Positions 7,697-29,643 of a stretch of DNA of 64,000 nucleotides are shown here, piece after piece. Below the pieces are notes generated by a model. The model had not been told where the DNA came from. It ran no database searches and worked only from the letters and a program-made list of their open reading frames with translations. The position numbers and the translations under genes were made by a program. How positions within the stretch are numbered: the stretch's first letter is position 1; each line of letters opens with the position of its first letter. This DNA is from Iodidimonas nitroreducens (GTDB taxonomy: Bacteria > Pseudomonadota > Alphaproteobacteria > Sphingomonadales > Rhodothalassiaceae), in NCBI GenBank assembly GCA_000710935.1, contig BAYV01000109.1:62001-126000 (forward strand), given 5' to 3'.

Positions 7697-7750
7697 AGCA
7701 CGAAGATAATGGTGTTTGTCCCTGCTAGGGCAGGAATCGGAGAGATGATG

Positions 7751-8182
7751 ATGGATGAGCAGCAGCCCGATATCGAACAGAAATGTGTCGAAAAGGGGAT
7801 GCGCATGACTGATCAAAGGCGCGTGATCGCCCGGGTTTTGAGCGATGCCACCGATCATCCCGATGTGGAAGAGGTTTATCGCCGCTCGATAGCGGTGGAT
7901 GATAAAATCTCTATCGCCACGGTGTATCGCACGGTCCGCCTGTTCGAGGAATCGGGGATTTTAGAGCGCCATGATTTTCGCGATGGCCGTTCGCGCTATG
8001 AGCCGGTGAGCGACGAGCATCATGATCATCTGATCGATCTGGAAACAGGCCAGGTTGTTGAATTTCATAATGAAGAGATCGAACGGCTGCAACAGGAGGT
8101 GGCGCGCAAGCTGGGTTATAAGCTGGTGGATCATCGGATGGAGCTTTATGCTGTGCCCTTGTCGCGCAAAGATAATGCATGA
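7751..8182 (+). CDS. fur: Fur/Mur-family metal-responsive regulator
   Basis: A Fur-family repressor of 143 residues with the winged helix (MRMTDQRRVIARVL, then SIATVYRTVRLFEESGI) and the metal-binding stretch SDEHHDHLIDLETGQVVEF. The CxxC pair of gammaproteobacterial Fur (LICLDCG) is absent, as in alphaproteobacterial Fur/Mur proteins, many of which answer to manganese instead of iron. Three ATGs in a row occur (7745, 7748, 7751); GGAG at 7739-7742 is correctly spaced only for 7751. Irr is encoded 21 kb away, so iron control is probably shared between the two. Confidence 0.92.
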   Translation: MDEQQPDIEQKCVEKGMRMTDQRRVIARVLSDATDHPDVEEVYRRSIAVDDKISIATVYRTVRLFEESGILERHDFRDGRSRYEPVSDEHHDHLIDLETGQVVEFHNEEIERLQQEVARKLGYKLVDHRMELYAVPLSRKDNA

Positions 8183-25304: not shown

Positions 25305-25319
25305 CCGGTTGTGCCTTTT

Positions 25320-25429
25320 GGGGCCACCGGCGCGGAACGGGACGAAATTCGTCGGCCCCTTGTGCGTTAAAAGCTTGGAAACGGGCAGCAGATCTGCCCA
25401 CAGGAGCCGGATGGAAGGCCATCGGCTTC
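25320..25429 (+). other. Structured pnp leader with three hairpins
   Basis: Hairpin 1: GGGGCC (25320-25325) with GGCCCC (25354-25359), enclosing the nested palindrome GACGAAATTCGTC (25341-25353). Hairpin 2: GGGCAG (25383-25388) with CTGCCC (25394-25399). Hairpin 3: GAGCCGGATGG (25404-25414) with CCATCGGCTTC (25419-25429), ending 20 bases before the pnp start. Enterobacterial pnp mRNA has a leader stem cut by RNase III and then bound by PNPase; a like role here is inference. Confidence 0.6.
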
Positions 25430-25449
25430 ATGACCGTTTGGAAGTCAGA

Positions 25450-27570
25450 ATGTTCGAAATCTATCGCAAAACCATCGAGTGGGGCGGACGCTCCCTCACC
25501 CTGGAAACCGGCCGCATCGCCCGTCAGGCCGATGGTGCCGTGGTCGCCACTTATGGCGAAACATCAGTTTTGTGCACGGTTGTTGCCGCGCGCAAGGCGG
25601 AACCGGGTCGGGATTTCTTTCCCCTCACCGTAAATTATCAGGAAAAAACCTATGCTGCCGGCAAAATTCCCGGCGGCTTTTTCAAACGCGAAGGGCGCCC
25701 TTCTGAAAAGGAAACGCTGACCTCGCGCTTGATCGATCGCCCGATCAGACCGCTGTTCCCTGCGGAATTCCGCAATGACACGCAGGTGATCTGCACCGTT
25801 TTAAGCCATGATATGGAAAATGATCCCGATATCGTGGCGATGGTGGGAGCCTCGGCGGCCCTCACCTTGTCGGGCATTCCGTTCTTTGGCCCCATCGGTG
25901 GTGCCCGTGTGGGGTATAAGGATGGCGCCTATCTGCTCAATCCGGTTCCGGCCGATCTGGAACAAAGCGATCTCGATCTGATCGTTGCGGGCACCCAGGA
26001 TGCGGTTTTGATGGTTGAATCCGAAGCCAGCGAGCTTTCGGAAGAGGTCATGCTCGGTGCCGTTCTTTATGGCCATGAGCAGATGCAACCGGTTCTGGAT
26101 GCGATCATCGCTCTGGCCGAAGAAGCCGCTAAAGAGCCATGGGATCTTCCGACAAAGCCTGATCTTTCAGCCCTTGAAGCCAAGGTCTCTGAATTGGCAG
26201 CCGCCGGTTTGGAAGATGCCTATAGCCTGACGGAAAAGCAGGAACGCCGCAATCGGATCGATGCGGTGAAGGCATCGGTGAAAGAAGCTTTTGCCGATGA
26301 TGCCGAGAATGCCGAAAAGGTGGGCGATCTTTTCAAGAAGCTCGAAAAAGCGATCGTGCGCGGCAATATCCTGAAGGGCAAGCCCCGGATCGATGGCCGG
26401 GCGCTTGATCAGGTGCGGCCGATCCTGGCGGAAGTGGGGGTTTTGCCCCGGGCCCATGGCTCGGCGCTGTTCACCCGCGGGGAAACACAGGCGCTGGTGG
26501 TGACCACCCTTGGCACTGGCGATGATGAACAGATCGTCGATGCCCTTGATGGCTCCTATCGTGAGCATTTCATGCTGCATTATAATTTCCCGCCCTATTC
26601 GGTGGGGGAAACGGGCCGCGTCGGCTTTACCGGACGGCGCGAAGTGGGCCATGGCAAGCTGGCATGGCGGGCTTTGAAGGCGGTTTTGCCATCAAAGGAA
26701 AGCTTCCCCTATACCATCCGCATCGTTTCTGAAATCACTGAATCCAATGGCTCGTCCTCGATGGCCACAGTGTGTGGCTCGTCTTTGTCGATGATGGATT
26801 CCGGGGTGCCTTTGGCGCGTCCGGTCTCTGGCATTGCCATGGGTTTGATCAAGGAAGGCGACGATTTCGCCGTTCTCTCGGATATTCTGGGTGATGAAGA
26901 TCATCTGGGCGATATGGATTTCAAGGTGGCGGGGACCGAAAAGGGCATCACCTCCTTGCAGATGGATATCAAGATCGCCGGGATCACCGGAGAAATCATG
27001 GAAAAAGCGCTGGCTCAGGCCCATGGCGGGCGGGCGCATATCCTTGGCGAAATGAACAAGGCGCTGACCGGTTCGCGGACCGAATTGTCTGCCAATGCAC
27101 CGCGCATTGAAACGATGCAGATCAACAAGGAAAAAATCCGCGAAGTGATCGGCACCGGCGGCAAGGTGATCCGGGAAATCGTTGAAACCACGGGCGCCAA
27201 GCTCGATATCGATGATGATGGCCTGATCAAGATTTCCAGCTCTGATCCTGATGCCATTGCCCGCGCTCGTGCCTGGATCGAAGGCATCGTGGCGGTGCCG
27301 GAAGTGGGCCGGATCTATGCTGGCAAAGTGGTGCGGATCATGGATTTCGGGGCCTTTGTCAATTTCATCGGCAGCCGGGATGGCCTGGTGCATATCTCTG
27401 AACTGGCTGATCACCGGGTCGATAAAGTGACCGATATCGTCAAGGAAGGCGATCAGGTGAAGGTGCAGGTTCTGGATATTGATGATCGTGGCAAGGTGCG
27501 CTTGTCGATGCGCCTTGTTGATCAGGAAACCGGTCAGCCGCGCGAAGATAGTCGAGGCGCGAAGGGTTGA
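25450..27570 (+). CDS. pnp: Polyribonucleotide nucleotidyltransferase (PNPase)
   Basis: PNPase is the trimeric 3'-5' phosphorolytic exoribonuclease of the degradosome. The 706-residue protein has two RNase PH domains ([15 protein letters not shown] in the first; [20 protein letters not shown] in the second) joined by a helical linker. A KH domain ([15 protein letters not shown], about 560) and an S1 domain ([15 protein letters not shown], about 625-690) follow. The frame opens at 25309, but [13 protein letters not shown] at 25450 is the family start, preceded by GGAAG. Autoregulation is suggested by the leader. Confidence 0.97.
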
Positions 27571-27609: not shown

Positions 27610-27644
27610 AACGCCGGGATGGTTCTTTAACCGTCCCGGCGTTT
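27610..27644 (+). terminator. Terminator-like stem after pnp
   Basis: AACGCCGGGA (27610-27619) pairs perfectly with TCCCGGCGTT (27634-27643), and GGTT (27621-27624) pairs with AACC (27629-27632) inside it. This gives about 15 nearly continuous pairs with a CTTT loop. The T-run after it is short (TTT), so termination may be partial or the stem may protect the 3' end. Confidence 0.7.
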
Positions 27645-27710: not shown

Positions 27711-29105
27711 ATGAAGGCACTGAATGCGATAAGAATGGCCGGCAAGGATCTTCTTCCTTTGATCGAAGGGGGGAAGGGGATCTCTGTGACCAGCGGCGCA
27801 TCATCGGGGCCATGGGCAGCGGCGGGCGGCATCGGCACGGTTTCTGCGGTGAATGCCGATAGCTATGATGAAGATGGATCGGTGATCCGCCAAGTTTATA
27901 ATGGCCGCACCCGCCGCGAACGCCATGAAGAACTGGTGCGCTATTCCATCGAAGGCGGTGTTGAGCAGGTGCGCCGGGCCCATGAAAATGCGGGCGGTGG
28001 CGGCGCCATCAATATCAATATTCTGTGGGAAATGGGCGGTGCCCAGCGGATTTTGGAAGGGGTTCTGGATAAAACCCGGGAATTGGTGAGCGGCGTCACC
28101 TGTGGTGCCGGAATGCCTTATAAGCTGGCGGAAATCTGCGCTGGCTATGGCGTGCATTATTATCCCATCGTTTCATCGGGCAGGGCGTTTCGGGCGCTGT
28201 GGAAGCGGGCCTATCATAAATTTTCCAGCTATCTGGGCGCTGTGGTTTATGAAGATCCTTGGCTTGCGGGGGGCCATAATGGGCTATCGAACAGCGAAGA
28301 TCCGCAAAAACCCGAAGATCCCTATCCGCGGGTGGTGGCTTTGCGCCAAACCATGCGCGATGCCGGTTGCCCCGAAGTGCCGATCATCATGGCCGGGGGC
28401 GTGTGGTTTTTGCGCGAATGGGAAGATTGGCTCGATAATCCCGAAGTGGGGCCGATTGCCTTTCAATTTGGCACCCGTCCTTTAGTGACGCGGGAAAGCC
28501 CGATCCCCGAAGCCTGGAAACAGATGCTGTTGTCCTTGAAAAAGGGTGATGTGCTTTTGCATCATTTCTCACCCACGGGCTTTTATTCCTCGGCCATCAA
28601 AAATCGGTTTTTACAGGAATTGGTGGAGCGCAGCGATCGCCAGATCGCTTATTCCCCCCAGCCTGTGGGCACCCATGATACCCTGCTCACCGATGGGTCC
28701 CGGCGGAAATTCTATGTGACGGCAGCGGATGCCGCCCGCGCCGCACAATGGCTGGATCAAGGCTATGGCGAGGCGATGAAAACCCCGGATAATACTCTGG
28801 TTTTTGTCACCACTCAAAGCCGCGATAAAATCAGGAAGGATCAGGCCGATTGCATGGGCTGCTTATCCCAGTGCCAGTTTTCCAATTGGGCGGATAATGA
28901 AAAAAATTCCACCGGCCGCAAAACCGATCCGCGCAGCTTTTGCATCCAGAAAACCCTTCAGGATGTGGCCCATGGGGCCTCGATTGAGGATAATCTTGTC
29001 TTTGCCGGGCACAATGCCTATCGCTTTTCCGAAGATCCCTTTTATTCCAATGGCTTCATACCCAATGTGAAACAGCTTGTGGATCGCATCCTGACTGGGG
29101 ATTGA
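27711..29105 (+). CDS. Nitronate monooxygenase-like FMN protein with cysteine-rich tail
   Basis: A 464-residue TIM-barrel flavoprotein of the 2-nitropropane dioxygenase/nitronate monooxygenase family. Visible parts are SGVTCGAGMPYKLAEI, the loop PWLAGGHNG and the phosphate-binding IIMAGGVWF. The C-terminal 70 residues add a cysteine-rich segment, DCMGCLSQCQFSNW, with one more cysteine in SFCIQKTL; it could bind metal or an Fe-S cluster. The substrate is unknown. The inverted repeat and promoter of irr begin about ten bases after its stop. Confidence 0.85.
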   Translation: MKALNAIRMAGKDLLPLIEGGKGISVTSGASSGPWAAAGGIGTVSAVNADSYDEDGSVIRQVYNGRTRRERHEELVRYSIEGGVEQVRRAHENAGGGGAININILWEMGGAQRILEGVLDKTRELVSGVTCGAGMPYKLAEICAGYGVHYYPIVSSGRAFRALWKRAYHKFSSYLGAVVYEDPWLAGGHNGLSNSEDPQKPEDPYPRVVALRQTMRDAGCPEVPIIMAGGVWFLREWEDWLDNPEVGPIAFQFGTRPLVTRESPIPEAWKQMLLSLKKGDVLLHHFSPTGFYSSAIKNRFLQELVERSDRQIAYSPQPVGTHDTLLTDGSRRKFYVTAADAARAAQWLDQGYGEAMKTPDNTLVFVTTQSRDKIRKDQADCMGCLSQCQFSNWADNEKNSTGRKTDPRSFCIQKTLQDVAHGASIEDNLVFAGHNAYRFSEDPFYSNGFIPNVKQLVDRILTGD

Positions 29106-29114
29106 CCGCGCGCC

Positions 29115-29147
29115 GAATATTAAACAAACATTACTTGTTAAATATTC
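29115..29147. promoter_or_regulatory. Long inverted repeat over the irr promoter
   Basis: GAATATTAAACAA (29115-29127) and TTGTTAAATATTC (29135-29147) are inverted copies matching at 12 of 13 positions with a 7-base spacer. The right arm includes the candidate -35 box of irr. There is no T-run, so a terminator is unlikely. An operator for autoregulation by Irr or for another iron regulator is the simplest reading. Confidence 0.65.
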
Positions 29148-29163
29148 CGTCCAAGGTTAATTT
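29135..29163 (+). promoter_or_regulatory. Candidate irr promoter
   Basis: TTGTTA (29135-29140), 17 bases, TAATTT (29158-29163). The -35 box lies inside the right arm of the inverted repeat, so a bound protein would block RNA polymerase. Confidence 0.5.
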
Positions 29164-29199
29164 ATCTGATCATTCCCAGCAGGCAAGGGAGCATCGGAT

Positions 29200-29643
29200 A
29201 TGTTGAACCGGGAAGGCCTCAGCCAAAGTCAGGCTGTCAGGCCCTATGCGGCCAGTCTCAATCTTTTGCGGGATGCGGGCCTTCGCCCCACGCGGCAGCG
29301 TTTATCGCTGGCCAAATTATTGTTCAGCAGTGGCCATGTGCGTCATGTTACCGCCGAAAGCCTGCATGAAGAAGCGCTTGCCGAAGGGATGAGGGTATCA
29401 CTGGCAACGGTTTATAATACCCTCCATCAATTAACCGATGCCGGCTTGCTCAATGAACTGGTGATCGATTCGTCACGCACCTATTTCGATACCAATACCG
29501 ATGGCCATCATCATTTCTATAATGCCACCACGGGCGAGGTTTATGATGTTCCGCATGATGATGTGGTGCTGTCCTGCCTGCCAAAACCCCCTGCCGGGGC
29601 CTCGGTCTCTTCGGTGCATGTGGTGATTTATATCGAAAGCTGA
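29200..29643 (+). CDS. irr: Iron response regulator Irr (Fur family)
   Basis: Irr is the alphaproteobacterial Fur-family regulator that senses heme or the state of heme synthesis and controls iron-using genes. The 147-residue protein has the winged helix (GLRPTRQRLSLAKLLF, then VSLATVYNTLHQLTDAGLL). It also has the triple histidine DGHHHFYN, which marks Irr and its heme site. A second cysteine-type heme motif near the N-terminus, as in Bradyrhizobium Irr, is absent. The ATG is preceded by a GGGAG site. The upstream inverted repeat suggests autoregulation. Confidence 0.92.
   Translation: MLNREGLSQSQAVRPYAASLNLLRDAGLRPTRQRLSLAKLLFSSGHVRHVTAESLHEEALAEGMRVSLATVYNTLHQLTDAGLLNELVIDSSRTYFDTNTDGHHHFYNATTGEVYDVPHDDVVLSCLPKPPAGASVSSVHVVIYIES

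Follow-up and report, generated by a model that had tools for sequence, protein, structure and literature searches.

An inverted repeat over the candidate irr promoter of Iodidimonas nitroreducens and its absence from close relatives

Upstream of the gene for the iron response regulator Irr, the 64,000-nucleotide stretch of the Iodidimonas nitroreducens genome analysed here (hereafter, the window) carries a long inverted repeat, one arm of which coincides with the candidate -35 box of the irr promoter. This arrangement raises the question of whether the dyad is an operator through which irr is controlled or a fortuitous embellishment of an ordinary promoter. The initial annotation, made from the letters of the sequence, had described the repeat, noted its overlap with the promoter and suggested direct blocking of RNA polymerase, with Irr itself or a Fur/Mur-type protein as the possible regulator. 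The repeat as such is borne out by reading of the sequence, in which positions 29115-29147 form 12 of 13 pairs around a 7-base spacer, with the bases flanking the dyad on each side (C and C) unpaired, and the coordinates confirm that the right arm contains the -35 box (Table 1).

Table 1. Features of the NMO-irr region of the window and the basis on which each was placed
Feature	Positions	Strand	Basis
Nitronate monooxygenase-like (NMO) gene, usual neighbour 5' of irr	27711..29105	+	Pfam NMO
Dyad left arm, GAATATTAAACAA	29115..29127	+	Complementarity to right arm; not retained in either congener
Dyad spacer, ACATTAC, 7 bases	29128..29134	+	Sequence
Dyad right arm, TTGTTAAATATTC; its 5' hexamer is the candidate -35 box	29135..29147	+	Sequence, promoter profile
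Candidate -35 box, TTGTTA	29135..29140	+	Top profile match in gap; CTTGT invariant in three-genome alignment
Candidate -10 box, TAATTT, 17 bases past the -35 box	29158..29163	+	Promoter profile; weak, 3/6 to TATAAT
irr, encoding a 147-aa iron response regulator of the Fur family	29200..29643	+	NCBIfam, Pfam, homologue search

The naming of the downstream gene, which starts with an ATG at 29200, as irr was upheld by profile searches: its product belongs to the FUR family by Pfam and scores 185.4 bits against the NCBIfam IrrA model (cut-off 150) and 171.5 bits against the Irr model, the cut-off of which (170) is barely passed. Irr matches with an E-value no higher than 5e-35 are present in 22 of 60 genomes, its own included, and the rest have weaker matches of the Fur-family level, apart from two genomes without any. 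The comparisons below draw on a set of 24 distinct irr loci with at least 47% identity, which includes named loci and from which two duplicates were removed; the closest Irr proteins discussed are those of Iodidimonas muriae (79% identical to that of the window) and a second congener (73%). The genome G002 corresponds to I. muriae, since its locus L003 agrees with the named locus L033 in the position of irr and in the sequence before it. An NMO gene lies directly 5' of irr in 22 of these 24 loci, at a distance of 70-343 bases to the aligned part of irr, and this pairing (27711-29643 in the window, and its counterparts in relatives) provides a lead to a functional link between NMO and irr.

Promoters were sought with a two-block profile, seeded with TTGACA and TATAAT and fitted to 21 orthologous NMO-irr gaps, the window's gap being excluded. 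The pair proposed in the initial annotation, TTGTTA-17-TAATTT (29135-29163), ranks first in the window's gap with a score of 10.3, compared with 4.8 for the next site, and 10.3 was reached in 6 of 500 single-base shuffles, a control which, here as for the regulator consensuses considered below, is weaker than dinucleotide shuffling. The pair is located 36 bases 5' of irr, and in 10 of the 21 orthologs the promoter pick likewise falls 29-40 bases before the aligned irr start. TTG-type -35 boxes occur in 16 and 17-base spacers in 17 of the 21 orthologous gaps, counts to be read in the light of the sigma-70 seed, which makes the hexamers of the profile partly built in, whereas the position before irr is not. 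Within this consensus-seeded search, the hexamers in the window stand 17 bases apart, inside the 16-18 bases that befit a sigma-70-type promoter, and at an ortholog-shared place before irr. In I. muriae, the profile picked a different pair, TTGTAT-17-TATCAT, and the -35 box was taken by hand as TTGTAA, aligned with that of the other congener. Scanning with the plain consensus yielded no entry for a + strand promoter at the irr gap, since TAATTT is weak as a -10 box. The placement of TTGTTA-17-TAATTT as the irr promoter is reasonably supported by these comparisons, and irr would be transcribed from it.

The significance of the dyad depends on how it was come upon. In the 94-base NMO-irr gap, 13-base dyads with at most one mismatch and a spacer of 0-15 bases arise in 17 of 20,000 dinucleotide shuffles, and when the 63-base promoter region was shuffled 4,000 times, comparable dyads turned up in a fraction of 0.002. 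A survey of 464 kb of the genome, consisting of the window and 400 kb taken as 20 stretches of 20 kb, uncovered eight dyads of this quality, of which six lie clear of any ORF of 100 or more aa. The irr dyad is the sole A+T-rich one among these six, with 2 of 13 G+C in its left arm compared with 5-9 of 13 in the other five. The non-coding DNA surveyed amounts to ~43 kb, or ~460 gaps of 94 bases, which at 0.00085 per gap, and on the assumption that the other gaps share the composition of the NMO-irr gap, translates into ~0.4 dyads expected by chance; accordingly, the dyad is unusual for one promoter but unremarkable if picked from a long stretch. No second copy within three mismatches is present in the window's genome assembly, and a repeated element was rejected because the dyad is single-copy at this threshold. 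Across 113 loci, the dyad pattern has four exact matches, all at the same irr place.

A conserved operator would be expected to leave a trace in the irr upstream regions of relatives, and the initial annotation had listed a lack of conservation in close relatives first among the outcomes that would speak against its reading; in these regions the dyad proved unconserved. Among the 21 orthologous gaps, the best match to the window dyad extends to 16 of the 26 arm bases, with 15 of 26 in each congener, and neither congener genome has a copy at up to three mismatches. In an alignment of the window with the two congeners, all three sequences share CTTGT in the -35 region, and the left arm is not retained. 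Dyads of any sequence near the -35 box were scored, as matches minus twice the mismatches, in 17 NMO-irr gaps, the window's among them, out of 22 distinct ones; L005, L007, L009, L013 and L023, in which the promoter is uncertain, were omitted, and these five have no score-10 dyad within 300 bases upstream (the gap of L005 is 343 bases long). The window dyad has a score of 10, equalled in 1 of 300 shuffles, and the best dyads of the congeners have scores of 5 and 6, equalled in 149 and 53 of 300 shuffles, respectively. The dyad most probably does not represent a conserved operator of irr.

Taken together, we consider it probable, on balance, that the locus carries an ordinary irr promoter and that the dyad over its -35 box is lineage-specific and either fortuitous or neutral. 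The stretch would represent a sigma-70-type promoter of irr in the short gap behind the NMO gene, the beginning of the right arm presumably being retained for its role as the -35 box. The left arm that pairs with it would be a product of chance or of neutral drift within this lineage, in DNA rich in A+T, with no protein binding to the resulting dyad. The likeness to ordinary sigma-70-type promoters resides in the TTG-type -35 box and the 17-base spacer, both common across the orthologous gaps, whereas the difference is the 13-base dyad that covers the -35 box in the window's species. Among the papers listed in our literature search, in which publications on Iodidimonas were screened by titles and abstract openings, there was no study of the irr promoter in this genus. 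Of more use, as matters stand, are the promoter-like hexamers common to the orthologs and the pairing of NMO with irr.

Since binding sites are subject to turnover from one species to the next, the absence of the dyad from relatives is compatible with an operator. Some operator role, taken jointly over another regulator, Irr and Fur/Mur, accordingly keeps a serious chance, albeit one clearly short of even, and the dyad, if bound, would be a lead to irr control in Iodidimonas. The form of this idea that survives best, although we regard it as rather unlikely, is an operator for a regulator other than Irr or Fur, whereby a dimer at about -55 to -23 (counted from an inferred irr start near 29170) would cover the -35 box and exclude RNA polymerase. 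The direct block of RNA polymerase suggested in the initial annotation would follow from this position if a dimer were bound, an argument from geometry and not evidence for a block. Besides the position relative to the -35 box, the low chance of such a dyad at a single promoter and its being the only A+T-rich one of such quality in the non-coding DNA surveyed speak for an operator of this kind, as do a differing dyad at the equivalent place in the distant relative L012 and a modest excess of half-sites in the genome. Conversely, the genome contains no second full site at up to three mismatches, and both congeners are devoid of the dyad.

The half-site excess carries less weight than its size might suggest. 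At up to two mismatches, the window's genome contains 67 half-sites (30 in forward and 37 in reverse orientation, a count to which the two arms of the dyad itself contribute) versus 47 (24 and 23) for a reversed control, which, here as in the Irr-box counts below, keeps base content but not dinucleotides. Of the congeners, both without the dyad, G001 has 81 half-sites versus 62 in the control, and the other, I. muriae (G002), has 55 versus 69. Since a comparable excess is found in a congener that lacks the dyad, the excess in the window's genome does not point to the dyad.

The dyad of L012 is a 10-base perfect, A+T-rich one over the irr -35 box, TTTTTCATAT-acttga-ATATGAAAAA, reaching from ~12 bases 5' to 13 bases 3' of the first position of that box and beginning directly past the NMO stop codon. 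Its score is 10, none of 300 shuffles was as good, and it is the only strong dyad among the 14 non-congener gaps scored; ~0.015 such cases would be expected among 16 relatives. Its sequence differs from that of the window dyad, although 13 bases running through its right arm match the left arm of the latter at 11 of 13 positions, in the opposite placement. As a sign of operators over the -35 box, this case is a mild hint, given that it was noticed while looking. A broader reading, in which irr promoters of the order repeatedly gain fast-changing dyad operators at the -35 box, with sequences that differ by lineage as between the window and L012, is a long shot; if true, such operators would entail rewiring of irr control between species.

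For the named regulators, we scored eight working consensuses (Irr, Fur in two forms, Mur, PerR, RirA, FNR and LexA) on the dyad and compared the outcome with shuffles. The Irr box, or ICE (iron control element), was represented by the inverted repeat TTTAGAANNTTCTAAA as its working consensus. Repression of irr by its own product through the dyad, which the initial annotation had put forward, is improbable, even though Irr is a Fur-family protein encoded just 3' of the dyad and A/T-rich Irr motifs are reported in a Brucella DAP-seq study (PMC10374146). The ICE consensus used here matches the dyad at 7 of 14 positions, which 953 of 1000 shuffles equal, and the congeners, with Irr proteins 73-79% identical to that of the window, lack the dyad. 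Furthermore, in the bfr (bacterioferritin) upstream regions of five genomes from the family, the best ICE matches are 7-9 of 14, with none above 9, and no common dyad appears among the top four listed per genome; VIT1 (PF01988), sought as an mbfA-type target, was found in one of five genomes, which left no usable target of that type. The ICE mismatch is, however, weak evidence against Irr, because the consensus used is un-enriched in the genome, with 52 sites at up to three mismatches, none of them below two, versus 159 for the reversed control. The Irr boxes of Bradyrhizobium and Rhodobacter are described as conserved-sequence sites near promoters in Irr-encoding genomes (PMC3413700); the dyad resembles these sites in its promoter location, but differs from them in its poor fit to the working consensus and in the lack of enrichment of that consensus in this genome. 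As a separate observation, the bfr upstream regions of three Iodidimonas genomes (L091, L088 and L090) share the block CAAGNNNCTGATWTT, with CTTGA 10-11 bases further on, and this block is possibly a control site beside the promoter.

Alternatively, the dyad could act in RNA, as a hairpin that protects or ends the NMO message. The NMO stop codon is located 9 bases before the left arm, the L012 dyad likewise begins just past such a stop, and folding of the 33 bases of the dyad yields -6.4 kcal/mol (z -4.5, equalled by 1 of 200 shuffles), the z being -2.0 (equalled by 5 of 200) for 60 bases including the flanks. Yet the stem is weak and A-U-rich, a T run follows the dyad on neither strand, no Rfam match covers it at E up to 1 and the congeners do without it, all of which makes this reading quite improbable. 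Given that the dyad is upstream of the inferred irr start, the hairpin would form only in transcripts reading through from NMO. An intrinsic terminator was rejected, there being no G+C-rich stem with a T run (the flanks are CGTCCAAG and GGCGCGCG) and no entry for the dyad in the list of terminator-like sites. A known RNA family was likewise rejected, the sole match at E of at most 1 lying elsewhere, at 28903-28984 on the minus strand (mir-187; 17.3 bits versus a gathering cut-off of 58).

As for Fur or Mur, the product of the gene at 7.8 kb (7748-8179) matches Fur-family models, in line with the Fur/Mur label of the initial annotation, but stays below every NCBIfam cut-off (best 106.2 versus 146 bits), so that it may be either a Fur or a Mur, which leaves room for either metal. 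The irr promoter of Bradyrhizobium japonicum is reported to respond to iron through a Fur homologue and to be dissimilar to canonical Fur boxes (PMC3836376), and the Fur motif of Caulobacter is covered in PMC3751524. The locus studied here resembles that of B. japonicum in the gene concerned and in lacking a canonical Fur box as judged by the working consensus, and differs in that Fur control is described there, whereas the comparisons made here give no sign of it. Despite this precedent for a Fur homologue acting on irr without a canonical box, control by the regulator from 7.8 kb through the dyad is very improbable, since the working consensuses for Fur as a 19-mer (8/19; equalled by 996 of 1000 shuffles), Fur as a 7-1-7 (8/14; by 535 of 1000) and Mur (7/14; by 872 of 1000) all match at shuffle level and the dyad is missing from the congeners. 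On these comparisons, control by Irr or Fur through the dyad is not supported. The working consensuses for PerR, RirA, FNR and LexA were rejected as well, none exceeding the shuffles and LexA coming nearest (180 of 1000).

Other dyads met in the survey merit a brief mention. Two of the five other non-coding ones, in L106 and at 14946 in L109, adjoin T-rich sequence on one side and are possible terminators. Within the window, a G+C-rich dyad that pairs at 12 or more of 13 positions occupies 27610-27643, ~40 bases past the ORF at 25309-27570, a putative polynucleotide phosphorylase gene; this dyad could mark a transcript end, but is not followed by a T run.
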